A stretch of 64,000 bases of DNA from Capitulum mitella (taxonomy: Eukaryota; Arthropoda; Thecostraca; Pollicipedomorpha; Pollicipedidae): positions 4,030,001-4,094,000 of the forward strand of contig CP099842.1 in NCBI GenBank assembly GCA_030062745.1, written 5' to 3'. This document shows positions 21,034-59,480 of the stretch, piece by piece; positions within the stretch are counted from its first letter, which is position 1, and the number at the start of each line of letters is the position of its first letter. A model generated the notes under the pieces. That model saw only the letters and a list, made by a program, of their open reading frames with translations, ran no database searches and was not told the origin of the DNA. The translations under genes were made by a program, and so were the position numbers.

Positions 21034-21320
21034 GGGGGCGACGTGGTGTGGCGGTTATCGTGCTCGCCTCAGTCACTTCCCGGTTCGAGCCCGGGTAACA
21101 GCGACATTGCGCCGTCCCTCTCGACAACCGTGAGGGCTGTCCCTCGCGACAACCATGAGGGCTGTCCCTCGCGACAACCGTGAGGGCTGTCCCTCGCGAC
21201 AACCATGAGGGCTGTCCCTCGCGACAACCGTGAGAGGCCGTCCCTCGCCACGGGCGTGAGAGGTTGCGACGCGAAATGACCGTGGCAGTCAAGGGCGTCG
21301 TTAAATAACCCAGTAGCCAA
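21034..21320 (+). mobile_element. tRNA-derived SINE with perfect 14-bp target-site duplication
   Basis: The element is bounded by identical copies of CCACTTCTCACGGT at 21020-21033 and 21321-21334. Its head is tRNA-like: an A-box-like TGGTGTGGCGG and a good B-box GGTTCGAGCCC near 21081-21091, i.e. an internal RNA polymerase III promoter. The 3' tail reads GTCGTTAAATAACCCAGTAG. SINEs are non-autonomous and are copied by a partner LINE. The intact duplication shows a real and fairly young insertion. The middle is occupied by a 25-bp tandem repeat, which is unusual for a SINE body. Confidence 0.85.
21114..21267. repeat. 25-bp minisatellite inside the SINE
   Basis: Five to six units of GACAACCGTGAGGGCTGTCC plus CTCGC, alternating ACCGTGAGG and ACCATGAGG, with the last unit diverged. 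Each unit can pair CCCTC with GAGGG, so RNA from this element would have a string of small hairpins. The array ends inside the element, before the SINE tail. Confidence 0.85.
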
Positions 21321-34880: not shown

Positions 34881-35042
34881 CCTTAACCCTATTCCCGGCA
34901 GGGGGGGGGCGGAATCCGCCCCCCCTCGGGTTTTTTGCTTGCCAATTACAGGCTTTTTGACGCAGCTTCACGAAACTTGGTGACTTTTCCTAGCTATTCC
35001 TTCTACGCGCCGTGACAAAATTTCGAAATTCTGTTTTTCTCA

Positions 35043-35615
35043 GGGGCGGAGCCAGGCAACGTTTTTGGGAGGCACCTCAGGTCATTTTTGGCCATGTTGA
35101 GGGTAAAAGGAAAATGTCTGCCAAAAACAGAGTTTTTGAGATAGAACTTAAAACTTTATATGAGTATATAGCTAAATAGTTGGGCAATGTGCATATGTAA
35201 TTTTGTTTGTCTGAGGTCACTTTACAAGGTCAGGTCAAGGTCAAAAGTCAAAATTTGTTTTTTCGCAATAATTTCGGCGCCGTTTTTTCAAATGCCAAAC
35301 CCGGAATATATATGACGTAGAAAAATGCCCTCTACTTGTGTACCAAGTTTCAGCTTGATATCAGGTCAGGTCACGGAGCTATGACCTAAAATGTCAGTGC
35401 ACGTGCCCTATATCGCAAAAGCCAAAAAATGATTTTTTTGGAATAGAGTGAATTTAATCGATTAAAAACGTTTACAGATAATATTGAATGCACACGACAT
35501 CATTCCAGGTGACCCCAAGGTCACTGGAGGTCATTTAAGGTCAAAGGTCACAAGTTGATCTGAGAAACGTGTGACCATGACAGTTCCCCCTTTTTTATGT
35601 CCCTGGCACCGCCTA
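35043..35615 (+). mobile_element. Nested GGGGCGGAGCCAGG-type element inside copy 1
   Basis: GGCGGAGCCAGG at 35045-35056 is mirrored, with one change, by CCTGGCACCGCC at 35602-35613. The left end matches the family start seen at 958 (GGGGCGTAGCCAGG). All three 1.2-kb copies have this interior, so the nesting came before amplification. It contains every AGGTCA word of copy 1. Confidence 0.5.
35538..35550 (+). promoter_or_regulatory. Perfect DR1 nuclear-receptor element in transposon copy 1
   Basis: AGGTCA-A-AGGTCA, two consensus half-sites spaced by one base, the DR1 bound by RXR/USP- and HNF4-type receptors. It sits in a cluster of AGGTCA words at 35518, 35528, 35538 and 35545. In copy 2 (38811-38823) one base of the second half-site differs. 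In copy 3 it is perfect on the minus strand (45050-45062). Binding is inference. Confidence 0.55.
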
Positions 35616-36101
35616 TGCTGACATTATACAAACATTGTAATGCGATTTGTACTTCTTTAGCATAACATGACTAGCAGAAGCTAAAAAAGTGTTTTGGCCT
35701 CTTTTGTTCATTCCGTTATTGGAAAACTAATCCCCCTATTTTTGAAACCCTGTGGACGCCCATGAATTTTCTCAAAATTTGAAATTTGCATACCCATGGT
35801 AAAAGCCCTATCCATAATCTCTCGATTGATGCCAGTTTCATCGAAATCGGTCCATAAACAACGGAGTTATAAGAAGTCAAAAAGTACCCCCCATTTTGAC
35901 ATTTTTGCCCCCCTGTATCCACAAATTTCAAAATTTTGAAAATTTCTTTTAATCAAAATGTAGTTCACGTCACGGCAAATCGATTGCCGTTTGTTGCGAT
36001 GAAATCGGATAAGTAGTTCTCGAGATCTCAGGGGGGGGCCGAATCCGCCCCCCCCTGCCGGGAATCGGCCATACCGTTTAGCCCTCCGGGAATAGGGTTA
36101 A

Positions 36102-38152
36102 TGTCGCCACAGGATAGTTCACCCCAGGGGAGGAGTGTACCGTTTTCCTGCAGTCTGCGGCGCATCGCTGTGGCAGGCGTGCTGCCCGACTGGCACTTTG
36201 CGCACCCTGTCACTTACAGTCTCGTACTGTTTTTGCCTCTGGAAATGTCTGTCCTCCCTTTGCGGAGCCGCCTCGGACTGGCGCAGTAGGCGGCCGGTGC
36301 CGTCAGGCCGCGCTGTTTACGGCCGTGGGACGGCGTCGCCGACTGCCGGCCGGCGCTGGGGCCACTTCCGAGCCGACTGCGGTGGCCGCGCAGAAGCAGA
36401 CCGTGCCAGACACGTACGTGGCTTGGAATTCGTGATGAAAATGCGGTTATCGTCATTTGGGTTAGGCCGGCGTGACAGCCTACGTGGAAAACTGTCGTTG
36501 CCGCAGAAAGAAGCGATGCCAGCTAACTGCAGTAGATAAATGCGCGAAAGCGTCGTGAGACTCGGCCGTCATCTGAATAATCGTCGTTGAGCAAAGTCAG
36601 GCATTTATACTTTGCCATTTGATCAGAACTTTTGGCTTTCCGCTGCTATTCCTTTTTTGTGTACGACGTTTGCATCCAGGTCCTTGATTAATATGCATCG
36701 AGGGCGCAATCATGTCTATCTCTTAACATGCACTGTCGTCAGTATTTGGCAGATTGCCGGAATGGTTGCCTGTCATCTGCCAAAGTATCGTGGGCGAGTC
36801 GCCTAACCTGGTGTATTTTTTTAGATGTGTTGGCGTGATACGACAGCAAAAACGAGTCGTATTTAGCCGGTAGTATTTGTGTGGAAAATGTTTGTTTACT
36901 GTAATGTTTGTGAACTGTTTCTGATATTCTGACAAGAAAATATTCCTAATCATATATCTATTAAAATGAAGATGGAGAGAGAGAAACAGAGAGACAGAGC
37001 AGGATAGAGAAATGCGTAGAGAATGTCTTGGGTTATGCTTATTTGGCCCAACAGCGTTTACCGGAAAAACTACGTTCCCAGCTACGCTGCCATGATGCCA
37101 GTTTTCTAGCCCTGCGCACAGCACGGCAACTTAAGTCAGAGTTAAAAATGTCCCGGGGTTAGCCATGAATACGATGATCAAAGTGCGACGCAGCGGCGCC
37201 TATGCTGCGGACCACCTCACTCGGACATATCTCGGTAATGTGCGGCGCTAACTTTGCATCTTTATCACCCAGTCCGGCCCTTGTCTGCATAACCATCTCG
37301 GATCTGTGTGGGCCTCTCAGGGCCTGTGGCACGCTTGGTGCATTAGACGCGCTGAATAACACATATCTAAACGTGGGACCGTCAGTCTGCAAAGTTGAAC
37401 AGACAGAACATGCGTGGTCTTCCAAGGTTCTCTTGGTTTCCGTTTTATAACAACTCGTTTAAAGTGTTGCTTTGACAGCTCGGAATAGATGGTAGGTAAA
37501 GTGTTTTTGTTTTTATCGGAACTGTTCATGTGGAGACCATTTGAACCAAATTCCATATTACAAACGACTTGCCGTTCGGGCCACATATGCCCATCGACTC
37601 ACCAACCACGGGGCCTTAGTTCTGAACCACGAGCCCAAAACGCTGAGTAATGTCACATGATCTAAGGGCACGGTACGGTGACACGGTACGCTGCCTTAAG
37701 CCCTGGTGGAGAGCAATACGTTTTATTTCGAATGGATTGGAACCTGCGAGACTCGACCCATGGTGCACGGCTCTCGTAGGTTACCAGTCGAGTCTCCTCT
37801 AACCGAGCAGTGTGATGACACGCGCAGTCAGCACAGACTCAGGAGGCGCAATATCTGCAGAGACAAGAACCCGTGCTATAAAATATATCCAGAACACATG
37901 ACCGTACGGTCTCGGGGTCTGTGCTGTTCTGTAGCGCTGATCCCAAAGAGGAATTCGTTGTTGATGTCTGAAACAAACCAAACTGGCGATGAAAGAAATG
38001 TCTAAAAAATGTTCAAACAGACGAACCTCAGAACAATGCTACACTCTCGGTTCAAGTCGCTTTGCCTGTACATGATCCGTAATGTTCGTGCAGTCAGTAT
38101 GTTTCGGTTTGTTTTGCTGATTACTGGCAGTTATTTCGAACCCTGATGTCTG
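36102..38152. other. Gene-free intronic stretch between piggyBac-like copies
   Basis: No exon or further transposon end is supported. A 10-bp inverted pair GAGACTCGAC/GTCGAGTCTC lies near 37748 and 37786. An A/G-rich run occurs at about 36970-37010. Confidence 0.35.
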
Positions 38153-39374
38153 TTAACCCTATTCCCGGCAGGGGGGGGGGGCGGAATCCGCCTCCCCTCG
38201 GGTTTTTTGCTTGCCAATTACAGGCTTTTTAACGCAGCTTCACGAAACGTGGTCACTTGTCCTAGCTATTCCTTCTACGAGCCGTGACAAAATTTCGAAA
38301 TTCTATTTTGCTCAGGGGCGGAGCCAGGCAACGTTTTTGGGAGGCACCTCAGGTCATTTTTGGCCATGTTGAGGGTAAAAGGAAAATGTCTGCCAAAAAC
38401 AGAGTTTTTAAGATAGAACTTAAAACTTTATATGAATATATAGCTAAATAGTTGGGCAATGTGCATATGTAATTTTGTTTATCTGAGGTCACTTTACAAG
38501 GTCAGGTCAAGGTCAAAAGTCAAAATTTGTTTTTTCGCAATAATTTCGGCGCCGTTTCTTCAAATGCCAAACCCAGAATATATATGACGCAGAAAGATGC
38601 CCTCTACTTGTGTACCAAGTTTCAGCTTGATATCAGGTCGGGTCACGGAGCTATGACCTAAAATGTCAGTGCACGTACCCTATATCGCAAAAGCCAAAAA
38701 ATGATTTTTTTTGGAATAGAGTAAATTTAATCGATTGAAAACGTTTACAGATAATATTGAATGCACACGACATCATTCCAGGTGACCCCAAGGTCACTGG
38801 AGGTCATTTAAGGTCAAAAGTCACAAGTTGATCTGAGAAACGTGTGACCATGACAGTTCCCCCTTTCTCATGTCCCTGGCACCGCCTATGCTAACATTAT
38901 ACAAACATTGTAATGCGATTTGTACTTCTTTAGCATAACATGACTAGCAGAAGCTAAAAAAGTGTTTTTACCTTTTTTGTTCATTCCGTTATTAGAAAAC
39001 TTATCCCCCTATTTTTGAAACCCTGTGAACCCCCATGAATTTTCTCAAAATTTCAGATTTGCATACCCATGGTAAAAGCCCTATCCATAATCTCTCGATT
39101 GATGCCAGTTTCATCGAAATCGGTCCATAAACAACGGAGTTATAAGAAGTCAAAAAGTACCCCCCCATTTTGACATTTTTGCCCCCCTGTATCCACAAAT
39201 TTCAAAATTTTGAAAATTTCTTTTTATCAAAATGTAGTTCACGTCACGGCAAATCGATTGCCGTTTGTTGCGATGAAATCGGATAAGTAGTTCTCGAGAT
39301 CTCAGGGGGGGCCGAATCCGCCCCCCCCTGCCGGGAATCGGCCATACCGTCTAGCCCTCCGGGAATAGGGTTAA
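38153..39374 (+). mobile_element. piggyBac-like non-autonomous element, copy 2
   Basis: Flanked by TTAA at 38153-38156 and 39371-39374, with the same ends, hairpin, nested interior and AGGTCA clusters as copy 1. By eye, differences from copy 1 are scattered substitutions and G-run length changes, well above 90% identity, so both transposed recently from a common source. Same orientation as copy 1 and about 3.3 kb from it. No transposase. Confidence 0.85.
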
Positions 39375-40400
39375 GGTATCTTTTCATTGTGGTCCTTCGA
39401 AGGTCCATGCTTATTTTACCCAACATTGCATCAGCGTCAATGGGATCAAACCCCGTCTTCAGACGCAGATGTGATGATGAAAATGGAGACCTTACTCAAT
39501 AGAATTTCGACGCGAGTGAATGCGATCTGTCTGCATTTCAAGCCTGTAGGGGGCTCGTCGTCAACAATTTGCTCTTGAAGTAGCCATTTGCTATCAAAGT
39601 AGCAATTACTCTCAATAGCTGCTAGCTGAAGTCCCGCAGCCCGTAGCGATTGACCTAATATGATGCTATCAAGTGAACAAGCTTCTTAGGCACGACCTGT
39701 ATTGATGGTGGCAAATCTCGCCACCACTTTTCCCACATTTTCTTGACTGATGCCCTAGATAAGCCGCCGAGTGCGTTTGTTCGCTCGTAATGGGTTGATA
39801 TGACGCGGCCTAAAGCTCCTTGACTGCGTTCCACTCCGTCAGAAGTTCGCTTAGTTCGCCAGTTGTCGGCTCGGCATGTGGTCGTTAAAGTGAAAGTAGC
39901 GGTCGCCGAGAGCTCCGAGGATAGCCCGCATCTGTCTGAGCGATGAGTGCTCACAGCACATCCACATCATACCTATGGCCACTCCATCACGCCGGGACGC
40001 TTTCCTGCATCGCCCCGCCGGTGCGGGGCCATGGAACCAAGGCCTGCGTTCCGCCCGCGGCACCAGGTCGCTGGCGGAGGTGTGCCGTACAGCCTGCGGC
40101 CGTGGCCAGCCGAACGAGGCCGGCGACCGACGGCCGCGCCGTCCCCGTTCCGAGTCCGCCGACGTGAAATATGCGCCGACTATTAGCCTGCTCGCTCGGG
40201 GTGGCCTCAACTTGCGGGTGCCGAGTTGGCTGGGTTTAATGAGGACGAGTCACCGGGGCGTAAAGCTGACTAATTGCTGCAACCGCTTTTGCGTGGAGCC
40301 GCCGCGACTGTGTTTAGCTCTCGGGGAGTGGAAAGGGGCGGCGGTTCGCTCCCGCCGCCGTCGCAAGCGAAGAGCCGGCCGCCTGGCTCCACCGCGGTGT
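39375..40400. other. Gene-free intronic stretch with a small CpG-rich part
   Basis: CpG-rich at about 39990-40180. Overlapping plus-strand frames at 39943-40418 show no domain. Nothing else is supported. Confidence 0.35.
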
Positions 40401-40670
40401 GGGACGGCCTCTCGCTGATGAATATGACTTGTCGTGGCCGGGCGGTTTCAGGCTCTTTTAAGGCAGTCCTCGTGATTAATCCAGGACTGAATGCGTGCGG
40501 GGCTCTATGCGCACAATGCTCCAACGAACCACACGCATCTTTGTGTGAGGATTACGAGCATTCTCACATCGGTCCGTCTTTAGCTGACTTGCTGAAGATA
40601 ACCAGAATATGTTGTTTTGCATCTTCTTAATTCCATTCAGCAACCGGTTTAATATTCGCACGCGGTACTC

Positions 40671-40823
40671 AGGGGCGCGGGAACCCCACCACAATTGGGG
40701 GGTCGTCGGGAGGGGGGCAAAAAGTATTTTTGGTCATTTTTTCCAGTCAACACCCAATGTTAAATTTCAAAAAAGCGGGGGAGGGGGGCAGCTGTCCCCC
40801 TTCCCGCTTCCCATGACTTTGAG
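40671..40823. mobile_element. 153-bp G-rich insertion private to unit A
   Basis: It is flanked by GGTACTC at 40664-40670 and 40824-40830. The matching place in unit B (about 47088) has a single GTTACTTC-like copy, i.e. an empty site. The insert starts AGGGGCGCGGG and has G-run and C-run parts like the repeats at 508 and 20223, so it is an active relative of that G-rich family. A 7-bp or slightly longer target duplication is implied. Confidence 0.65.
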
Positions 40824-41747
40824 GGTACTCCACGTATGAATAAATATTCTTTGCATTCTGATAAAGCTAATGAGGCGCCAAAGGAGAAATATGTAGCGAT
40901 ATAACAACATTCAAACTCTTAATGTGTGCTATACATTTAATGAGGCGCAGATCATGTGGACAGCTATCGCGCTTCTGTTAGAGTTTAAGTATTCCGTCAA
41001 ATCTGAACACTGTTCTCTCTAGCTGGTAGGGGCAGACCAGAAGTCGGCCGAGAACTGCCGGGTCGCCAGGCGCAAATCGAAAGAGGAAGAAGGCCAACGA
41101 GGGTCATCTTAAGTGTGTTGAAGTATAGCTACAAAAGGATAAATATCGGAAGACAATGACGAAAACAAACAGAAAAAAGGGTTTCCTATTAAACCTCAAA
41201 TTATTCCCCTCTTGCCTATGTTTCTTTTGGGAGATTTTCAGGACATCAGCCACACACCGACGAGTTCAAAGACGATGAATTGGTACTGTTGACCAAGCGT
41301 CTTATATTCGTATCAGCCCACGACCAACACCAGCATAGGTGGAGAAAACAAAAGTTGGTGTGGCAAAGATTAACCTGGTAAGCCTCATTCTCTCAGCTCC
41401 TGCTCCTCCTCCCCCCGGTTGTTTTCTCATCCGATTTCAAACACTTAATTTTCGATTTTGATGAAAATGACAGAAGAAGTTGTTCTTCCGCTAGTTACAG
41501 TTTGTTCTGGGGCTTTATTGTGCCTGCAGGGACAGAAATACCCTGAAAGGCACTGAATTGGAGTGCTCCGTGATGGCATTGCTCCATAATCGGTAGGCTT
41601 CTGCTGTGTAATTTATTTTTAACTTTGCAGTCCATAATTCTGCAAACAAGTAAAATTTGGGATGTGGATGATTCCCTTCCACAACCAATTATAGAAACAT
41701 TTTCTGTCAAAAGTTGGTGCGGCATGTCAGTGTGGCGTGCCATATCC

Positions 41748-42119
41748 AAATGTGCTAAAGGCCTTTATTGTGTTGTCTTCCGCTGTCAACTCATAGAATT
41801 CGGCCAAGCTCACTTTAAAGAAGTAATTTGCGATGCTGAATCACATTCTGATGGACTGCCGATCTTTGACCCAGAGGGGTCTTTCGGGGGTCAAACAGAG
41901 GTCGGCCTTATTTGACCCCTCTGGGTCAAATAAGGCCGCCCGGCCGGCGGCCGCCCAGCTGAACCGCGCGCCGGCCGGGTGGCCTTGTTTGACATCTTTG
42001 GGTCAAAGTCCGGCAGCTCATCAGAACACTTTCAGCACCGCAAATTACCATTTTCAGTGACCGCCGAATTCTCTGAGTTGACAGCGGAAAACACCAAAAT
42101 AAAGGCCTTTGGCACATTT
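41748..42119. mobile_element. Foldback MITE with ~130-bp inverted arms
   Basis: The left arm (41748-41885) starts AAATGTGCTAAAGGCCTTTA and the right arm (about 41990-42119) is its diverged reverse complement, ending AAAGGCCTTTGGCACATTT. Near the centre a perfect 15-bp hairpin, GGCCTTATTTGACCC (41904-41918) with loop CTCT and the exact complement at 41923-41937, would make a cruciform. A short CpG-rich part follows. It is absent from the corresponding place in unit B. No ORF. Confidence 0.8.
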
Positions 42120-43001
42120 GACCTCATTTGACCCCATCTGACCTCTAGGTTCCAAAGTTAGGTCCAATCTATCGCCAGGAACGGTTTCAACACCACGAAC
42201 GCCATCCGCTGGCGGCCGGCCGTAACACTGCTGACGTAGACGGTTTGGTCGGCTGCCAGATGCGCTATCAGGAAAGTTCTTCAGATTTCCAGATAAGTCT
42301 TCATGTGTCGGTGGAATCTGATCAAAATCAGAGGTACATCAGAAAATGATAACATTTCGGAGGAATTTACGAAATTGGTTAAGACCTTTCGGGAGCCTTG
42401 TTGTTGAGGACACTACGAAGTCGTGCAGTTTTCCCACAGTTTCATAGGGTCGGAACATGCGACCCAAGTTATGCTCTTGTTACTGCACCGGGTAGAGGTT
42501 CAAACGTGCCGCTTTTCACAGAGTGTCCAATAACTCTTAGTGACAAGGTCAGGTGTGCTGTTTCGACGTTATTCATGGAGCACTTTCTTTGCCAGTTACG
42601 TTGCTGTATTAGCGTCTCCAGGGTGGATAAGAAATATGAAAGAAATGTCGGAGCCGGAACAATCCATGTAGATCGATCCCAACGAACAAACGGCTAAACC
42701 GCTGATGTCGAACCGTTCTGCTTCTTTCACGACCTTGCCGAAGTTCCGCCGTAAGCGTCAACCGGAGCGCAGCCGTCCGAAACTCTGCGCTGGACGGAAT
42801 GGCTTCCTTTGTACTCGGAAGAGAGTAAATAAACTGGGCGAACATAACGAGACGATTAAGGTGAGCTGTTGCACCATACATCTGTGAATGTCGACATTGT
42901 ACGCCGGACAAATGTGAGCCGTCAAAGGCCGTGCGGAGATCGGAACATTACCGCCCTGATTGGACTGAGCGCAGTGTCGACACCGGCCTGACGGCGTGAC
43001 G

Positions 43002-43465
43002 CCCAGTTTATACGAACGGCGAAAACGCCCGTCTGCGCGTGCTTCTGCCGTTCGAACAGCCTCGCGTGCCTCGCGGCGGGCGAGTGGTGACGACTGATGA
43101 CGTTTTAATGGTGTATTCATGGTGTTTACGCCAATCAGCGATCACGTGGACTAGGAAGCTTGTCGCGCAACATATCAACCACGCCTGTGATGTGGCTGGG
43201 GGGATTGAATCAGCCGTCCAGCGCTGCGGCCGGCCGCGCATGACCTTGACCCCGCCTCGGGCCATGTGGCCGGACGGCGTGAGCCGGCCAGGCCCGACTC
43301 TCGGGCGGTACCGGGCAGTCTCTGCCGGGCCGCCACCACGACCAGGATTGGCATGCAAGCGCTGCGTGTGCGCTGCGCGTAAAGCACGGATACAACAACG
43401 CCCAAGTCTGCTGCTGCGGGTGAAACGCAAGATCTGATTTGAACGTAATCGGATCAGGTTATTAC
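43002..43465. other. 464-bp segment upstream of WAP-A, absent in unit B
   Basis: It is flanked by GTGACG at 42996-43001 and 43466-43471. Unit B has one CTGACG at that place (about 51084-51089), then continues into the shared 74 bp before the start codon. It is either an insertion in A or a deletion in B. No inverted ends or tRNA-like head is seen. It separates WAP-A from upstream sequence that WAP-B keeps close by. Confidence 0.6.
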
Positions 43466-43545
43466 GTGACGAGGACGGACCTGAAGGCCATCTCCTGGTC
43501 GGTTTCGACGTCCGCGGTCGACCTCGAGCTCAATCGAGCGCAGCC

Positions 43546-43842
43546 ATGGCGAGGCTGGTACTGCTGCTGAGCTTGCTGGTCGCATGGGCGTCGGCGCATG
43601 TTTCGACGACCGGCATCGGGTGCTGCAGGAAAGGCTGCGGCGCCGTCTGCTACGAGCGTTGGCCGCTCCAGAAGGCAGGCAGCTGTCCTCCGCCGCCGGA
43701 CTTTGTCTGTGCCCTGGCACCTCCGCTGCCGGATCCCTGCAGGAGCGACGACTTCAACTGTCCCGGCCGGCAGAAGTGCTGCGTCGGCGGCTGCGGCACC
43801 GCCTGCGTGGAGCCGCGCTTCACCCAGGAGCCCGACTGGTGA
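43546..43842 (+). CDS. Secreted WAP-domain (four-disulfide core) peptide, WAP-A
   Basis: 98 residues in one open frame. Residues 1-17 form a signal peptide (Leu-rich core ending AWASA). Residues 26-35 hold CC-x3-C-x3-C, the spacing of the C-terminal half of a WAP domain. Residues 47-87 form a full WAP domain with eight cysteines at 47, 55, 65, 72, 78, 79, 83, 87 and the CPGRQKCC signature. The start codon context GCAGCCATGG is strong, and the 74 bp before it are shared with WAP-B. WAP proteins are secreted, commonly protease inhibitors or, as in crustacean crustins, antimicrobial peptides; which applies here is inference. The gene appears intronless and lies in the Ig/FN3 intron. A decayed WAP remnant follows the stop. 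Expression is unproven. Confidence 0.85.
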   Translation: MARLVLLLSLLVAWASAHVSTTGIGCCRKGCGAVCYERWPLQKAGSCPPPPDFVCALAPPLPDPCRSDDFNCPGRQKCCVGGCGTACVEPRFTQEPDW

Positions 43843-43888
43843 CCGTCACGGCCGCGTAGGGGCCGGCCATGTTCGTCGGCCCCCGCCT

Positions 43889-43933
43889 GACCGCTGCGGC
43901 GGCAGTGACGCCGGGTGCTCCTGCGGACAAGTG
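43889..43933 (+). pseudogene. WAP-domain remnant after the WAP-A stop
   Basis: In one frame this reads DRCGGSDAGCS, matching the DPCxSxDxxCPG part of a WAP domain. It aligns with the remnant 3' of WAP-B (51652). It lies past the stop and in another frame, so it is a lost repeat of a formerly longer protein or of a neighbouring copy. Confidence 0.5.
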
Positions 43934-44249
43934 ATACCTTCGTAACTTCGGCTCGCTGCCGAGTTCGAGTCGAGTTTGTTTTGTGTTTTGTGTGTCGATA
44001 AATTCAAAAAATATAAAAAAACTCACTTCGCTGCGCGTGATTCCCGGTCTGCTCGTCACCCCGGCGCCAACGGACAGGACAGGCTGGTGTTCGAAGCCGC
44101 GCGCACCGCCGTCCGAGTGCGGGATGAAGCGCGGGACGGTCGACTGCTGGGCGGGGGAGGTGATGTCCGGTATCCCGGTGCGCTCACTGTGGTAGAAAAT
44201 ACAGCCCAGGACGTGGAAACTGAAAACAGAAATAGAAATAGGAAAAGGA

Positions 44250-44255
44250 AATAAA
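44250..44255 (+). terminator. Candidate polyadenylation signal for WAP-A
   Basis: AATAAA about 410 bp past the stop codon, in an A-rich stretch where chance matches are likely. No nearer canonical signal is seen. Weak support. Confidence 0.2.
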
Positions 44256-44509
44256 AAAAACGAAAAAAGTAAAAAAGAAATTCAAAAACAGAAAGTCGGA
44301 AGCAGAAAATGGAGAACGTTTGGAATGCCCGAAGGTCATCTTCTCGCTTTTCTTTGACGTAGAGGACTATCAGTATGTTTCAGGCGTGGAGTATTATATC
44401 GACCGGCATTCTGTTAATGACAGGTAAATCAACGGTGAGCTCACTTCATTATTTTTACTGATCGTTGATAAATACGACTGGTTATGCCCCAGCGGTTTCA
44501 GACCCTCAT

Positions 44510-45713
44510 CCCTTTTCCCAGAGGGCTGGACGGTATACAGCCGAATTCCTGGCGGGGGTATTCCAGCCCCTTCTGAGATATCGAGATCTATACATCCGAT
44601 GTCATCACAACAAACGGTAATCGATTCGCCAAGACGTAAATTGTTTTTTATGATAAGTTTTCGAAATCTTGGAAGAGATGGAAACAGGATGGCGAAAAAG
44701 GAAAGTGGGAATATTGTTGGACTTGTTGTAATTTCGCTGTTTATGAAATGATTTAGAAACTGGCATAAACCGAGATTTTATGGATGGGGCTTTTATCATT
44801 GGTCCATAGTCTGAAATTTTAAAGAAAATAATCATAAGAGTTCACGGGGGTTTCGAAAATGAGGGGACTATTTTAAAAAAAACACAAATAAACAAAAAAG
44901 TTAAAATATTTTTTTTTTTGCTGTTACTATTCATGTTGTATTTAAGAAGTACAAATCGTTTTACATTGTTTTATAATGGTACCATAGGCGGCATAAGGGA
45001 AATGGAAAAAGGGGAACTGTCATGGGCACGTGTTCATTAGGTCAGCTCATGACCTTTGACCTTAAATGGCCTCCAGTGACATCAGAATCACATGAAATGA
45101 CCTTGAGTGCATTTCGTATTGTTTGAAAACGTTTCCGATCGTTTCAGTCGGCTTTATTCCTAAAATCCCAATTAATGTCTGCCTTGTTATAGGACACGCA
45201 CACTGACAGGTTGGGTCATAGCTCCATGACCCGACCTGATATCAACCTGAAATTTGGTACACATGTAAAGGGCACTTTTAAAGTTATATATATATCAGGT
45301 TTTGCGTTTGGAAAGTTAGCGCTAGAATTATCAACATAAAACCAGTTTTGATGTTTTGACCGTGACCTGGCCCTCTGAACTGATCTGAGTTTAACAGAAT
45401 TATTTTTTTATGCTTGCCCACATACCTGCCTATACACCCATGCATAGTTCTAAGTTCTATCTAAAAAACGCTATTTTTGGCTGCCATTTCCTTTTACCTT
45501 TGACAGGGCCAAAGATGGTCTGAGGTACCTCCCAAAAACGTGGCCTGCCTCTGCCCCTGAAGGAAATAAGTTTATGAAATTTTGGCATGTACGAAACAAA
45601 AATGGGCAGGAGAAGTGACCGAGTTTCGTGAAGCTGCGTGAAAAACTCTGGAACTGGTAAAAGAAAAACCCAAAGGGGGCGGATTCCCCTTCCCCTGTCG
45701 GGAATAGCGTTGA
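44510..45713 (-). mobile_element. piggyBac-like non-autonomous element, copy 3 (inverted, diverged)
   Basis: The reverse complement of copies 1 and 2 over its whole length, including the G-rich right end (44511-44560), the AGGTCA clusters and the CCCTTTTCCC/GGGAATAGCG ends. The flanking target reads TCAT on the left and TTGA (45710-45713) on the right, decayed from TTAA. Unit A keeps the empty site: TTAA at 40458-40461 between the same flanks (CGGTTTCAG... and GCAGTCCT). So it is a true, older insertion made after the tandem duplication. Confidence 0.85.
45050..45062 (-). promoter_or_regulatory. Perfect DR1 nuclear-receptor element in transposon copy 3
   Basis: TGACCT-T-TGACCT, the reverse complement of AGGTCA-A-AGGTCA. 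This copy has many substitutions elsewhere, including decayed target sites, yet this 13-bp site is unchanged. It lies about 6.1 kb upstream of WAP-B. Regulation of WAP-B by it is speculative. Confidence 0.5.
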
Positions 45714-46191
45714 CGCAGTCCTTATAAATAATTCTGGACTGAATGCATGCCGGGGCTGTGCGCGCATAAACGAACCACACGCGTCTTTGTGTAAGAATTA
45801 CGAACATTTTCATATCGATCAGGTGACTTGCTCAAGGGGTCAACAGTAAGATTTTGACCGAGCGCTTACTTCGAGGGAAAATAATCGTAGTAGTGGTTGC
45901 ATGGCGCTTCAAATGCAATAGTGATAAGTACTACTTACGATTTCAGCCGGAAAAACCTGAAACACACATTATTTTCCCGGAAACAGGTTGCGCCGTCACT
46001 GGTATGCTAACCGCCAGACGCACGCTTAGGGATTTTTGACGTTTCTGCATTAAATAGTTTGTTTACGAGAGATCTCGAGGCTGATTGGTCGTCGGTCGGA
46101 CTCAAGGTCCAATCAAGAGTAATAAAAAAGGTTGAAGAAATAACTAATGCGATATAAATTATCTTTAAAATGAAAAAGGTAATCGTTGTAT

Positions 46192-46297
<106 letters not shown>

Positions 46298-46515
46298 TAG
46301 TAGTTATAATAATAACAAACAACAATAACAATAAAAAAGTAAAAATATTACAAGGATGAAAAAGTGAACTTGCAATTTAGAAAATACAAAATAAAAATAA
46401 CAAGCAGTAAAATAAAATATCTCAAAAGGCATCACGGAACAAAACGGAAAAATATTAGGAAGTGAAATAAATAAAACAATTGTGAAAGTGAAATAAAACA
46501 ATAAATAAAAATTTA

Positions 46516-46632
46516 CCCTAACCTAACTTAGTAACCTAACCTAACCTAACCTAACCTAACCTAACCTAACCTAACTTAACCTTATCTAACCTAGCCCAGC
46601 ACAACCCCACCTAGCAACCTAATGTAACCTAA
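46516..46632. repeat. Interstitial telomere-type (CCTAA/TTAGG)n array
   Basis: The core at about 46531-46575 has eight or nine tandem CCTAA units. Diverged units on both sides (CCTAACTTAG, CTTAACCTTATCTAACCTAG, CTAATGTAACCTAACG) extend it to about 115 bp. TTAGG is the canonical arthropod telomere repeat. Being 220 bp from the compound microsatellite and inside a block absent from unit A, it was inserted or expanded here after the duplication. Confidence 0.9.
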
Positions 46633-48276
46633 CGAGTATTAAATGTCATAATGTAGTAATACTGATATCAGATAATCCCAACAATTATCTAATGCAATAA
46701 TATAATGGCGTAATAATTCAGCAGTTCCTCCAAGTTCAGTTTGTGGCAACAAAATAGAATTTTCATATCAATAATCTTAACCTTGGCGGCACTACATTTT
46801 CCGCCGCGAAATAATGTTGTTCTCCGCCAGTTGACTGCAGCACGGTATTACTGAAATGGTACGTTATCGTAACGATTTTGTTGTTATTTTTTAGACAATC
46901 AAGTAGTGGAAAGTAAGGTTAGAAACAGGATGATACATTCTTTGCATTGGTGGCAACTATACAAAGGATTGTTCGCGATTTCGTCGGGCAGAAACTTACC
47001 TTTAGCCGCTATAGGTAATCAAAACATATTGTTTTGTATCTTCTTATATTCCATTCCGAAACTGGTTTAATGATCGAACATGTTACTTCAAGTATCAATA
47101 AGCATTCTTTGCACCATCAGAAAGCTAATGAACTACAAGATGAGAAATATGGAACGACATAACAGCATTCAAACTTTTCATGTGTGTTTTAGATTGGGTG
47201 AGGTACGGATCATGTGGACAGCTATTGGGCTTCTGTTCGAGTTTGGTCACTCTGTCTAATCTGAACACTGTTCTCTCTAGCTGGTAGGGGCAGACCAGAA
47301 GTCAGCCGAGAACTAGTGGGTCACCAGGCGCAAATCGAGAGGGAGGAGACCAACGAGGGTCATCTGAAGCGTGTTAAAATATAGCTAAAAAAAGCTAAAT
47401 ATCTGAAGACAGCAACGAAGGAAACAGAAACAAGCGTCCCCGATTCACAGAACAAACTCCTCTTACCCATGTTCGTTTCGGGGGGATTTTCAGGACATCA
47501 GCCACAGAGGAACGAGTTCAAAGGCTATGCCTTGTTACTAATGACCAAACGTCTAATATTCCTATGAACATCCGACTGCCACCAATGGCTAGATCCAAGT
47601 ATTTACAGTTTCTTCGAAGAAGCAGAAAATGCATGAATGTTTTAAAACATCCTACGTTGGCTCAGTAGAATTTCGACTATTTATTTCATTGAAATTTCCA
47701 TTTTTCATATATTTCTGCTAAACATCCCTTGTTTAAGGATGTCCGTTCTGTCCCCCAAAAAATTTTGAAGTCTGTGTTTGCAATATTAAACAGATTTTCA
47801 AGCTGAGCTGCGCATTTTCTGTTTTGCGACCTTAGCGTACGATTTTGGCCACGAACGCTGTCCACTGACTGCCGGCCGTACTACTTTGATGCCGTAGATG
47901 GCCTGATCGGTTGCCGTATGCACCATAAGGGAAAATTCTTCAGGTTTCCAGATAATGTTCATTTATTGGTGGAATCTGATCAAAATCAGTGATGTATCAG
48001 AAATTGATAACATTTCGGAGGAATTCACGAACTGATTAAGGTCTTTCGGGAGCCTTGTTGTTGAGGACACTCTTCATGAAGTTGTGCAGTTTTCCCACAG
48101 TTTCATAGGGTCTGAATATGTGATCCGAGTTACCCTCTCGCTGTTGCACTGGGTAGAGGTTTATACGTGCCGCTTTTCACGGAACGTCCAGCAACTCTTA
48201 ATGACGAAGTCAGGTGTGTATTGTTTCGATGCTATTCATGGGGTTCTTCCTTTGCCAGTTATCTTGCTGTATTAAC

Positions 48277-49429
48277 TAGGGATGCATTGGATCGGAAGTT
48301 TTGTGATCCGGCTGGATGCCGGATATTTCGGATCAAGGTGCCGGATATGGGGTCGGATGCCGGATATTAAACTTACCTATTTCAGTTTCCCTGTTTTTAC
48401 TGAAAAGTTAACGAAAAAGGCTAAATTGAAAAAGGGAAAGATCTGAAAAACCGAAAAATATTGAATCAAATGTTAACGTCTTGAATCATTCACCTTTGCG
48501 CATACACTGACTGTGAAGTTTCCATAGGTTTCCATGTAAAAAAAATGAGTAAATGAATAAAAAAAAAAACAACAGTCATAGCCGAGCTCGCCGTCTCTCA
48601 CGGCATTCATAGGCATGGGTGTAACCACGGTTCAGAAATTGGGGGGGGGGGGCAAACTGGCTGCAATGCATCAAGAATAGGTGTGGGGTTAAAATCACTT
48701 TTTCGGTCGTTGCATGACAACGTACGCTTGAAATTCCTTTGTTTGATTTCAGAAGTCAAGAAATTGTGTCGCTAATGGAAAATAACTATATATAATATCT
48801 ACCTTAAAAATCTGAGGAACAATTACCACTTCTGGAAAACTACGTGGGACATGGGCCCCTCAGCCCCCGCCGAGGTTACACCCATGGCAAAGGCTCCAGA
48901 GTACGCAGAATGCCATTGTAGCGCCTTGGTAGAACTGGAATACCTGACTTGATAAGCTTTCTGTACGAGTACTTAAAGTATGTCTCTTGAAGTATATTGC
49001 CCCGTAATGCATTTGTATCAGAGGATTTGAGAAAGATAAATGTCTGAAAACTAGAGAGATAATACACCACAAAATGGGCTACTGAGGACATGCTGGCTAT
49101 TGTTTCACAGCTTTGAGCTTGGGTCCCACTTTTGCAAAATATGTCTCAACCTTTCCAAAACTAAGAAGGATAAGTGGTGCTCCAAACAGACCTTGGAAGT
49201 GCCAGTTACATGGACAATCTAATATGACGAGGCATATTTCTTCTGAAACGGCTTTTGTAGGCAGACATTAGAACAACGTCGTGATCGTACACCGGAAGGC
49301 TAAATATCCGGCAATATCCAGCCGGATCACACAAATATCCGTCCGGATACCGAATACCGGGTAATCTTTAGTATCCGGCCGTACACCCGGCCGGATATAT
49401 GGCCAGACCGGATACCCGGTGCATCCCTA
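48277..49429. mobile_element. hAT-like non-autonomous element with nested insert
   Basis: Terminal inverted repeats TAGGGATGCA (48277-48286) and TGCATCCCTA (49420-49429). The flanking 8 bp, GTATTAAC (48269-48276) and ATATTGAC (49430-49437), match at six positions, fitting a decayed 8-bp hAT target duplication. The empty site in unit A at about 42607 reads GTATTAGC. Subterminal arms are exact inverses: GATCCGGCTGGAT (48305-48317) and ATCCAGCCGGATC (49316-49328), among many CCGGATA words. No transposase ORF. Confidence 0.8.
48614..48886. mobile_element. Nested short element with 13-bp inverted repeats
   Basis: CATGGGTGTAACC at 48614-48626 and its exact complement GGTTACACCCATG at 48874-48886 bound 273 bp inside the hAT-like element. 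Like the other G-rich units it has a long G run (about 48643-48653) after the left end and a C-rich CCCCTCAGCCCCCGCC before the right end. It fits the same loose family as 508-633. Confidence 0.7.
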
Positions 49430-50569
49430 ATATTGACGTCTCCAGGATAGGAAAAATGAAGGGAATTTGAAAGAAAAGTCGGGGGCGCAGAAATCCATGT
49501 CGATCGAGCGTAACGAACAAACAGCTGCGCCGTTAATGTCGAACCGTTGTTCTTCTTTCACGACCTTGCCAAAGTTCTGTCGTGTCAACCATAGTGTAAC
49601 GGCCGAAAACTCTGCACTGGACAGAATGGCTTCCTTTGTATCCGGAAGTGACTAAATAAGCTGCACTGAGAAGACGACTTGTGAACATCTTACATTCATG
49701 CTTATTTTAAACCAGTTGTAGGTCTGACATTCTAGTTTGAGTCCTCTGCTGAAGCTCTTGCCAAACTAATTTCCAGTGCGGAATTGCAGGGCTCATTGCA
49801 AACTAGCAAATGTTCCATACTTATCATTCATAGGGCGGTACACAGCGAGGAGGGCTGCTGGTCTCACGGTTGCGCATCTGGTTTACCGTGAGACGCGTCA
49901 CTGATCTCGGCGGAACAAGTCACAATTACAAGAGGCAGTCGGCTTGAGGAGGTTGTGGAATGCGGTCGGTCGTGACAGGTTGAGCTAGGCGTGCTGTGGG
50001 ACCTTCCAACAGCCGTGAAATTAGATGGTAAGGTGCTTGACATGGGGATGTTTTTTTCATAGGCACGCGTTCCTCATTTTGAAGTTTTGTCGTGTCTCTA
50101 CAGGAATTACAGGAAATACAGGCGATCGACAGTACTGCTACCAGCACTGTACAGTGATTTGTCAGTTCTTTGTTAAAGAAACCCGCAGTGCACCGTGCAG
50201 ATAGGCCGGACGAAAGGTGACGCGCTATATGATACCCGTAAACTGGGGGCGGATGGTTCGACAGTTCTGTTACCAGCGCGAAAACGCAGCGTGGCGATTC
50301 CTTATTTCTGCGTTCCTGACATGACACCAGGGCGGTAATTTCCTGTTTGCGTGTTCCTGGCGTAGCTCTCCTGTGATTGCCTACAGTTGTTCGTACGGCA
50401 GTAACTGTGTCGTCACCCACGGCTGTCGCCAGCTCAGCTTCGATTGGGTTCAGCCTTGTTTCGACCAAATACATACCGTTAATTTTTTCCGTTTCGAAGA
50501 CTACGATTTTAAAGTAGGTCGCCGAAACCTGAACGAGGGATATTTTGAGAATGACTTTGGACATTGAGA

Positions 50570-50935
50570 CCAGTGGCCATTCTCACTTAGAAAAAAGTGA
50601 GAACAACACCTGTTCTCAGAGACCAGAAGGGGTTCTCATTTTCCCTATTCAAATCAGACCACACATTTTCATACCCTGGGAGGACTCATTTGAGAATGTT
50701 TTCGAGACTGGTACCTGATCTCATGTGAAACCACCTTTAACATAAGGTTTCACTTGAAACCAGGTGGATTCATATGAGGCCAGGCACCATTCTCGAGTTA
50801 AACCGTTCGCAAATGAATCCTCTTAGGGCATCGAAAATGTGTGGCCTGAGTTGAATAGGAAAAATCTGCCGGCCTCTGGAAATCTCTGGAAATCTCGGTT
50901 ACCGGCCTCTCTTTTTCTCAGTGTGGGCTAACGTC
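50570..50935. mobile_element. Foldback element in the unit B-specific block
   Basis: CCCTATTCAAATCAGACCAC (50643-50662) pairs with GGCCTGAGTTGAATAGG near 50842. Inner arms around AAACCACCT / AGGTGGATTC give a near-continuous imperfect palindrome centred near 50745. Ends are ragged, so borders are approximate. Repeated GTTCTCA and GAGAAC words lie at the left. No ORF belongs to it. Confidence 0.6.
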
Positions 50936-51163
50936 ATATGGCGATAAAGGTAAAATGTTGCACCATGCAGCCGTGAATGTCAGCATCGTATGCCGGGCAA
51001 ATGTCAGCCGTCAAAGGCTGGCGCAGATCGAAGCGCTACCACCCACATTTGACTGAGCGAAATGTCGACACCGGCCTGACAGCCTGACGGGGACGGACGT
51101 GAAGGCCATCGCCTGGTCGGTTTCGACGTCCGCGGCCGGCCTCGAGCTCAATCGAACGCAGCC

Positions 51164-51616
51164 ATGGCGAGGCTGGTACTGCTGCTGAGCCTGCTGGTCG
51201 CATGGGCGTCGGCGGGCGTTCCGACGAACCGCATCAGGTGCTGCAGGAAAGGCTGCGGCGCCGTCTGCTACAAGGGTTGGCCGCTCCAGAAGCTGGGCAG
51301 CTGTCCTCCACCGCCGAAATATGTCTGCGCCCTGCATCCGCTGCCGGATCCCTGCAAGAGCAACGACTTCAACTGTCCCGGCCGGCAGAAGTGCTGCGCT
51401 GGCGGCTGCGGCACCGCCTGCGTGAAGCCGCGCTTCACGCTTCGCAAGCCCGGCAGGTGCCCTCCGCCTCCGAAATATGTCTGTGCCTTGGCGCCTCCGC
51501 TGCCGGATCCCTGCAGGAGCAACGACTATAACTGTCCCGGTCGGCAGAAGTGCTGCGCTGGCGGCTGCGGTACCGCGTGCGTGGAGCCGCGCTTCATCCA
51601 GAAGCCCCGCTGGTGA
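51164..51616 (+). CDS. Secreted double WAP-domain peptide, WAP-B
   Basis: 150 residues in one frame. The signal peptide (1-17) is identical to that of WAP-A. A half WAP domain with CC-x3-C-x3-C follows at 26-35. Full WAP domains are at 47-86 (eight Cys; two residues shorter between its second and third Cys region) and 99-139 (eight Cys). That gives 20 cysteines in the mature protein. Both full repeats carry CPGRQKCC. The second repeat is closer to the single full domain of WAP-A around CALAPPLPDPC and the ending CVEPRF. Probably a secreted protease inhibitor or antimicrobial peptide, by family. The 74 bp before the start are shared with WAP-A. More WAP remnants follow the stop. Confidence 0.87.
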   Translation: MARLVLLLSLLVAWASAGVPTNRIRCCRKGCGAVCYKGWPLQKLGSCPPPPKYVCALHPLPDPCKSNDFNCPGRQKCCAGGCGTACVKPRFTLRKPGRCPPPPKYVCALAPPLPDPCRSNDYNCPGRQKCCAGGCGTACVEPRFIQKPRW

Positions 51617-51651
51617 CCGTCACGCGGCCACGCGGGGGCCGGCCCCCGTCG

Positions 51652-51900
51652 GACCCCTGCGGCGGCAGCGACGCCAGGTGTTCCGGCAGACAGAAGTGAT
51701 GCCTGGGTATCCACCAGCGTGGAGCCCCGCTTCACCCAGAAGCCGGTTTACTGTCCGTTCAGTGCTGGGATCTGCTATCAATGTGGGGACACCCCCGTCC
51801 GTATGTGGTTTCGATGACGTAAATTGTCCGGGTAAGCATAAATGCTGTGACGCTGTATGTAGAGCAGTCTGTGACAATCCTACGGAAGCACCATTTTATT
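51652..51900 (+). pseudogene. Two decayed WAP repeats after the WAP-B stop
   Basis: First remnant: DPCGGSDARCSGRQK followed by TGA (51697-51699) exactly where the first Cys of the CC pair is expected (TGC to TGA). Its end, SVEPRFTQKP, continues in another frame near 51717. Second remnant: a C-terminal half with DDVNCPGKHKCCDAVCRAVC in a third frame (about 51813-51872), its first cysteines (YCPF, ICY) lying in the previous frame. Two shifts and a stop in the first repeat show loss of function. The ancestral gene had at least four WAP repeats, or part could be an unrecognised exon. Confidence 0.7.
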
Positions 51901-52072
51901 GGCGAAGTTCACTGTGGCAGAAAATACGGCCTGGAACATGAAAATATTGTTGGCATGAAATACCCGAGGGTTATCGTTTCGCTGTTGTTTGACGTTGCGG
52001 ACTATCGATATGTTTCAGATGTGGATTTTTATATCGAGCCGTGTCCTGCGAATGGTAGGTAAATCAACGGTA

Positions 52073-58310: not shown

Positions 58311-58788
58311 CGTATTCGGCACAGATCGCTGGCGCCGCTCAGCTCGACCGCATCAGCGTGTTTTTGACGCTTAACCCCTTAGATTGACCGAATAGCGTCG
58401 TTCTGGAAGCCAGATGGCAGCTTGCTGTGGAAGAGTGTGTCACTGGTTCTCGAGAGTCGTTATCTTATATGTTCACGCTGTGGGGAATTATTTTTTCGGG
58501 TGTCCAGCGGCTCCAACACTTTGCGAACGAACCGCATATCACGGAGACGACGGACGCCCTCGCATCACCCTCCCCCCTCCCCTCGCCAGGCCAGATGGGT
58601 CCGCTCCCAGACGTGCCCATCGCGCTTATGCAGTTGAAAAATGCGGTCTTTTCCGCCGACGAGAGTTCGGTAGAAGACCTCGCCACGGTTTCGCTAGCCG
58701 GGACGATGCCTCTGTCCCAGATGTTGAGTGCTGCAGTGTGACCGCGGCCCCGGCTGCGGGACGCTGTGTGCGGACCGGATCGGTGTTG

Positions 58789-59480
58789 CCTGATCCCGTG
58801 ATAGCCGCAGAACCCGACTCTGCAGAGGACGGGGTCCCGACTGGTCGCGATATAAGGCCGCCTGATCCCGTGACAGTCACAGCCGGAACCCAGCTCTGCA
58901 GAGGACGGGGTCCCTACTGGTCACGATATAAGGCCGCCTGATCCCGTGACAGTCACAGCCGGAACCCAGCTCTGCAGAGGACGGGGTCCCTACTAGTCAC
59001 GATATAAGGCCGCCTGATCCCGTGACAGTCACAGCCGGAACCCAGCTCTGCAGAGGACGGGGTCCCTACTGGTCACGATATAAGGCCGCCTGATCCCGTG
59101 ACAGTCACAGCCGGTACCCAGCTCTGCAGAGGACGGGGTCCCTACTGGTCACGATATAAGGCCGCCTGATCCCGTGACAGTCACAGCCGGAACCCAGCTC
59201 TGCAGAGGACGGGGTCCCTTCTGGTCAAGATATATTGCCGCCTGATCCCGTGACAGTCACGGCCTGACTCCTGCTCTATAGAGGATGCAGTCCCGACTGG
59301 TCACCATACATTACCGCCTGATCCCGTGACAGTCACGGCCGGACTCCTGCTCTGCAAAGGCCGTGGAAAGTCACGGCCTGGAACACGACCCTGCGGAGGA
59401 CGGGGTGCCGCCTGATCCCGTGACGGGAGCGGTCAGGCCTCCGATTATACAGAGGACGAGGTTCCGACTGGCGGCGTACT
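58789..59480. repeat. 76-bp minisatellite
   Basis: CCTGATCCCGTGACAGTCAC starts units at 58861, 58937, 59013, 59089, 59165, 59241 and 59317, an exact period of 76. A 72-bp variant precedes (58789) and diverged units follow to about 59480. Central copies are almost identical. Each unit has the palindrome-like TGACAGTCA, CAGCTCTGCAGAG and a GATATAAGG word that looks like a TATA box. The period is not a multiple of 3, so it is not a protein repeat. Confidence 0.95.

Follow-up and report, generated by a model that had tools for sequence, protein, structure and literature searches.

A segment carrying the gene for a WAP-domain secreted peptide was very probably duplicated in tandem long ago within the window (the whole 64 kb stretch of DNA that was analysed), and the two units have since undergone insertions and changes of their own; this reading is drawn from the sequence, and the tandem arrangement is seen in a single assembly. 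Unit A occupies 40412–44436 (+ strand; 4025 bp, own inserts counted) and unit B occupies 44462–52071 (+ strand; 7610 bp, own inserts counted), both delimited by alignments and a test of the left ends. Tandem duplication followed by transposon insertion is an ordinary kind of event, and no new kind of system is revealed. Several transposon types can be compared here with reference to a single duplication, some empty target sites having survived, and the locus is one at which a WAP peptide gene changed its domain number (one in A versus two in B). It can be used for the annotation of these element families and for the study of domain-number change in WAP peptides.

Collinearity and extent of the units

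Collinearity, head-to-tail order, unit ends and unit-specific inserts were observed directly. Self-BLAST aligned 40.4–44.4 kb with 45.7–52.1 kb in eight collinear plus-strand matches, two of which overlap each other at the WAP repeats. A long-gap alignment of A with B scored 1947, compared with 57–93 for ten base shuffles of B, and contributed extra short blocks at 40599–40661 and 44184–44206; it wrongly put the leftmost end within a transposon. The left ends of the units were tested separately, 40412–40451 against 44462–44501 giving a score of 22 (null maximum 12, n = 100). Three flank tests outside the units returned scores equal to the null mean and showed no homology there. The units are separated by a 25 bp junction (44437–44461), for which no match was found in the right flank of B or, up to 44455, in the left flank of A. 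The first-pass annotation had proposed a tandem duplication with collinear blocks lying head to tail, and had suggested a self-alignment; the ordered BLAST matches and the alignment score bear the proposal out, and the gaps and flanking duplications between the collinear units are listed below.

Noncoding sequence is 81.4% identical between A and B (300 of 1613 sites differ, 18.6%), which points to an old duplication. The unmatched segments listed account for 5283 bp of B (out of 7610) and 1837 bp of A (out of 4025), and ~2.2 kb is still common to both. The region is rich in transposons, and the shared blocks could in principle be dispersed repeats that lie twice in the same order by chance. 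This is very improbable: order and orientation are kept over eight BLAST matches that include a gene, the eight noncoding blocks measured have diverged to a similar extent (K2P 0.15–0.26), and each of the seven noncoding blocks searched occurs only twice in the 64 kb window. The genic block, searched in the same way, also matches the WAP repeats inside B.

We also regard it as unlikely that the assembler placed two alleles of a single locus side by side as A and B. Adjacent false copies have been documented (PMC9516828), and the noncoding difference measured here is near the average fourfold-site diversity within the barnacle Balanus improvisus, taken only as an example (~20%), for which PMC8270832 also gives ~5% over whole coding regions and 6–12% neutral diversity for one well-studied gene. 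Gaps between copies are described in PMC9516828 as a mark of false duplication, wrongly filled gaps also being mentioned; the window contains no N, although a wrongly filled gap would not show in this way. At E 1e-8, other doubling in the window consists only of one transposon family, two foldbacks and local tandem repeats.

Under the preferred reading, a tandem duplication of the segment with the WAP peptide gene, in the genome of an animal that was probably an arthropod, would have been followed by drift of the copies to ~19% at noncoding sites. Unit B would then have acquired a hAT-like element, a CACTG-ended element and a low-complexity block, and A a 153 bp insert; a piggyBac-like copy would either have entered B or have left A precisely.

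Insertions polarised by target sites

The hAT-like element of B (48277–49429) has TAGGGATGCA ends, which agree over 10 bp, and is flanked by 8 bp target copies, GTATTAAC (48269) and ATATTGAC (49430), which agree at six of eight positions. Target copies of 8 bp together with inverted ends are traits of the hAT family. In A the target is present undoubled (GTATTAGC at 42606), so the difference is read as an insertion in B. The 8 bp target copies and TAGGGATGCA inverted ends liken the element to non-autonomous hAT elements; no transposase was found in it (one ORF of 71 aa tested, no Pfam match). A non-autonomous copy need not carry a transposase, and the element is named hAT-like only. A possible further element is nested within it at 48614–48886, with 17 nt inverted ends that are 94% complementary.

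The 153 bp G-rich insert of A (40671–40823) lies between two copies of GGTACTC (40664 and 40824), and B has a single undoubled target, GTTACTTC at 47082; the difference is therefore attributed to an insertion in A. No inverted repeat of length at least 10 was found within this insert.

Differences not polarised by target sites

The piggyBac-like copy of B (copy 3; 44510–45709, − strand) is flanked by TCAT and TTGA, decayed from TTAA, and the corresponding site in A is a TTAA at 40458–40461. It is ~73% identical to the copies at 34883–36104 and 38153–39377. Copies 1 and 2 are each flanked by TTAA and their CCCTATTCCCGG ends, with the CCYT motif, match, whereas in copy 3 the target copies and ends have decayed (7 of 32 positions differ from the family over the 12 bp ends and 4 bp target copies). 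One ORF of copy 3 was scanned and had no Pfam match. A length of ~1.2 kb is long for a MITE. The TTAA target copies and the ends of copies 1 and 2 are hallmarks of piggyBac-type MITEs according to PMC2872659; the ~1.2 kb length of the copies here and the decay of copy 3 set them apart.

Excision of piggyBac elements is usually precise and restores TTAA without a footprint, imprecise cases also being noted (PMC2872659). Precise excision from A would leave the same TTAA, so this case is unpolarised. That copy 3 was already in the ancestral unit and was later precisely excised from A, rather than inserted into B, is possible but doubtful. The absence of a footprint after piggyBac transposase activity would fit, as would the 7 of 32 differences in copy 3 when set against the 9.3% expected for an entry at the time of the duplication (p = 0.025, post hoc); part of these differences may nevertheless predate its insertion, and excision from A requires one event, the same number as insertion into B.

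A segment of 463 bp found only in A (43002–43464) lies between two copies of CGTGACG (42995 and 43465), which form a 7 bp repeat at its ends, and B has CCTGACG at 51083. This segment was considered as a transposon and dropped, as it has no inverted ends; the difference may fit a deletion in B as well.

The empty sites named in the first-pass annotation (TTAA at 40458, GTATTAGC at 42606, GTTACTTC at 47082 and CTGACG at 51084) are all present. Its view that the units record each other's history for four element types was too strong: it holds for the hAT-like element and the 153 bp insert, which are polarised by target-site duplications, but not for the piggyBac-like copy or the segment that it gave as 464 bp. 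Its list of interruptions also lacked two inserts in B and the difference in WAP-domain number. The first of these inserts is an 1184 bp low-complexity block (45832–47015) with no clear ends, containing microsatellites of ATG and ATA as well as an array (46517–46593) of CCTAA, an arthropod-type telomere repeat. Together with the G+C content, this array was weighed as a pointer to a barnacle origin, which no search confirmed. The second is a 1260 bp CACTG-ended insert (49664–50923) with ends CACTGAGAA and TTCTCAGTG, a possible 2 bp TG target copy and an internal foldback (50638–50865).

An uninterrupted counterpart had been claimed for every interruption, and at two places this does not hold. 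In A, 41314–42191 contains a foldback element (41747–42120) and a 17 bp direct repeat (41349 and 41708) and has no counterpart in B, where 47566–47847 lies at the corresponding place; the two have no detectable similarity (score 12, null mean 11.9), and no single insertion can explain them. The other pair, 43940–44183 in A and 51705–51908 in B, scored 11 (null mean 9.2, maximum 16). Among ten proteins scanned with Pfam, the three from insert ORFs gave no transposase.

WAP peptide genes

The gene of A (43546–43842, + strand) encodes 98 aa, with an N-terminus that is signal-like by eye, a truncated WAP repeat (four Cys) and one WAP domain (eight Cys). The gene of B (51164–51616, + strand) encodes 150 aa, with an N-terminus as in A and two WAP domains. 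The coding part is apparently without an intron. Both products exceed the Pfam WAP cut-off of 20.8 bits (A, 37.8 bits, E 2.4e-9; B, 65.2 bits, E 6.3e-18 in two stretches) and both have the eight Cys of the four-disulfide core. Tandem duplication with insertions specific to each unit, centred on a defence-type WAP peptide gene much as the first-pass annotation described, is the best reading. The truncated first repeat scored 23, whereas the highest score among 200 codon shuffles was 17.

After the stop codon of B lies a relic WAP repeat (51650–51744, + strand, E 1.7e-9), and the stretch of A aligned to it (about 43877–43939) is likewise 3' of the stop codon. A second, frame-broken relic in B (51725–51881, + strand) reached 19.1 bits in Pfam, below 20.8, and no counterpart of it was seen in A. 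Because both units have a truncated start repeat and a relic repeat past the shared stop codon, descent from a longer WAP-repeat gene is probable, and A may have lost one domain via unequal exchange between repeats.

Silent distances between the WAP domains (R1 and R2 of B, 0.339; A and R1, 0.096; A and R2, 0.288) suggest a domain doubling at least as old as the A/B split. The dN values run the other way, with R1–R2 (0.048) lower than A–R1 (0.078) and A–R2 (0.094). An origin of B's two domains after the split would thus be disfavoured by silent sites and favoured by amino-acid changes, and may still hold. A agrees with R1 at nine of 20 informative sites and with R2 at five, and R1 agrees with R2 at six; a chimeric R1–R2 origin of A's domain is weakly supported (9 versus 5, p = 0.21; 9 versus 4 without the last site, p = 0.13).

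The WAP domain also has sequence matches to elafin and omwaprin (E 4e-5 to 6e-5), solved WAP proteins of vertebrates, which differ in having short chains of 50–59 residues. As short, apparently secreted peptides with a WAP four-disulfide core, the predicted products resemble the crustin-type antimicrobial peptides of crustaceans. Crustins are described as having 12 Cys, and Type IV crustins as having two WAP domains (PMC11678330, PMC5793079, PMC7401287); A would resemble crustins in its 12 Cys (4 + 8), and only B would resemble Type IV in its two domains. Type I crustins have a four-Cys region before one WAP domain; A has four Cys in that place, yet these look like the latter half of a WAP repeat in their pattern (CC-x3-C-x3-C).

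Divergence in the 5' part of the gene

Silent divergence in the 5' part of the gene is lower than that of the flanks, which hints weakly at gene conversion. When the 79 bp upstream of the ATG are counted with the silent sites, 12 of ~147 positions differ, compared with 300 of 1613 in the noncoding blocks (p = 0.001), and these 79 bp differ at 6 positions, compared with 32 of 155 in the block left of the 463 bp segment (p = 0.014). Amino-acid constraint does not account for the low silent divergence, since dN (0.11) is close to dS (0.093) in the N-terminal part, and the same repeats do vary at silent sites (R1–R2 dS 0.339). Conversion between A and B may have homogenised this part of the gene, with the tract ending at the 463 bp difference; we put this somewhat short of an even chance, as the sites are few and the region was picked after the data were seen. 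Judged on the 79 bp alone, the tract failed a scan test: similarity as high occurs in 25 of 1381 windows to the left of the gene, and in at least one window of 1205 of 2000 shuffles.

It is conceivable, but on balance unlikely, that the two genes are still exchanging, with conversion keeping the leader and first WAP domain similar as the flanks drift, transposon and indel boundaries limiting the tract, and unequal exchange altering the number of WAP domains. If true, the pair would show a defence-peptide family changing its domain number between transposon insertions.

Further searches

Relatives of the B protein were searched for in viral_contigs (4 pattern matches) and genome_contigs (184 pattern matches), and none was confirmed, as expected for an animal gene. 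Rfam at gathering scores gave no match and ARAGORN (bacterial code) no tRNA. The G+C content is 51.9%.

Extent and age of the tandem units

The window was compared with itself at a threshold of E = 1e-8. Eight plus-strand matches were found, collinear between 40.4–44.4 kb and 45.7–52.1 kb, two of which overlap at the WAP repeats. Long-gap alignment of the head-to-tail units A (40412–44436) and B (44462–52071) scored 1947, against 57–93 for base shuffles of B (n = 10); it contributed two further short blocks, and its far left end was wrongly placed within a transposon. In a separate test the left ends of the units matched (40412–40451 and 44462–44501; score 22, null maximum 12, n = 100). The upstream flank of A scored at the null mean against both the sequence preceding B and the downstream flank of B, as did the latter flank against the junction. 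The alignment, left-end and flank tests thus give lengths of 4025 bp for unit A and 7610 bp for unit B, with a 25 bp junction (44437–44461) between them. The tandem duplication described in the first-pass annotation was correctly observed and well localized.

The listed unmatched segments total 5283 bp in B and 1837 bp in A, so that ∼2.2 kb is common to both. Across the noncoding blocks, 300 of 1613 aligned positions differ (18.6%; K2P 0.218), and the blocks are 84.1% identical over 1360 sites once CpG sites are masked. Judged from this divergence, the tandem duplication is old. Allelic false duplication, with A and B being alleles of one locus, is a serious rival because a barnacle with ∼20% diversity at fourfold sites is on record (6–12% in one gene studied in depth; excerpt of PMC8270832), but the window is gap-free and its self-comparison gave no comparable doubling elsewhere.

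Interruptions distinguishing the units

The hAT-like element in B (48277–49429) has 10 bp inverted ends and 8 bp target copies, GTATTAAC and ATATTGAC; the counterpart of the target site in A is GTATTAGC at 42606. Since hAT excision normally leaves a footprint behind, the element was most likely never present in A. A possible further element is nested within it (48614–48886). A 153 bp segment of A has GGTACTC on either side where B has GTTACTTC, and is accordingly read as having been inserted in A; within it, no inverted repeat of at least 10 was found. A 463 bp segment of A, in which inverted ends were looked for and none found, lies between two copies of CGTGACG (CCTGACG in B); deletion in B via the repeat and insertion in A both fit.

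The piggyBac-like copy 3 in B (44510–45709) has decayed flanks, TCAT and TTGA; at 40458, A has TTAA. Support for the family comes from two fresher copies (34883–36104 and 38153–39377), which start ∼3.3 kb apart in the same orientation, retain TTAA on both sides and are 96.7% identical; by this similarity the family is judged to have moved recently. Decay at seven of the 32 end and target positions of copy 3 hints that its insertion is older (p = 0.025, post hoc). As piggyBac excision is usually precise (excerpt of PMC2872659), the single TTAA is no proof that A never carried copy 3.

Two inserts of B were absent from the first-pass list: one of 1260 bp (49664–50923) bounded by CACTGAGAA ends, possibly with TG as the target copy, and a low-complexity one of 1184 bp (45832–47015) holding microsatellites and a CCTAA array. 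This interstitial, telomere-type (CCTAA)n array (46517–46593) resembles arthropod telomere repeats. No similarity was detectable between A 41314–42191 and B 47566–47847, or between A 43940–44183 and B 51705–51908. An uninterrupted counterpart for every interruption, as had been proposed, is therefore not general. Of the four interruptions proposed, the hAT-like element and the 153 bp segment are polarised as insertions, copy 3 and the 463 bp difference being ambiguous. The interpretation was correct in part, and less of the history can be read than had been claimed. A foldback element with 58 nt arms (91% complementary) lies in A at 41747–42120.

WAP-domain genes

Each unit carries a gene for a short WAP-domain peptide (Pfam 37.8 and 65.2 bits for A and B, respectively; cut-off 20.8) whose N-terminus is signal-like, as judged by eye. 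The gene of A (43546–43842, plus strand; 98 residues) has one domain and that of B (51164–51616, plus strand; 150 residues) has two, R1 and R2. The four-cysteine region preceding the domains matches the second half of a WAP repeat, scoring 23 against a null maximum of 17 (n = 200). Beyond the common stop codon, TGGTGACCGTCACG, B has a relic WAP repeat (E = 1.7e-9), with an aligned stretch in A, and a second, frame-broken relic below the Pfam cut-off. We infer that the ancestral gene had more WAP repeats.

Silent distances (R1–R2, 0.339; A–R1, 0.096; A–R2, 0.288) suggest that the two domains of B are at least as old as the A/B split, in which case a repeat would have been lost from A. Amino-acid changes point the opposite way (dN of 0.048, 0.078 and 0.094, respectively). 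Among the 20 informative sites, nine group A with R1, five group A with R2 and six group R1 with R2. On the order of domain doubling and split, we lean towards repeat loss in A.

In the stretch from the 463 bp difference to the first WAP domain, 12 of ∼147 silent and upstream sites differ, against 300 of 1613 (p = 0.001). When every site of this stretch is counted, the units differ in 33 of 357 alignment columns, three of which are gaps. Taken by themselves, the 79 bp upstream are unexceptional (25 of 1381 windows equally similar; 1205 of 2000 shuffles). A conversion tract over this stretch is possible and is offered as a lead.

Splice-donor-like motifs lie upstream of both genes (AAGGTGAGC at 42858–42866 in A and AAGGTAAAA at 50947–50955 in B); an intron preceding the ATG is possible, like that of one penaeid crustin gene (excerpt of PMC5793079).

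Other features of the window

At 1402–1803, an ORF matching RNase H (26.1 bits in Pfam, E = 1e-5, cut-off 25.8) is probably a retrotransposon remnant. Tandem arrays occur at 21114–21248 (25 bp unit, 5.4 copies) and 58788–59360 (76 bp unit, 7.6 copies, 92% matches).
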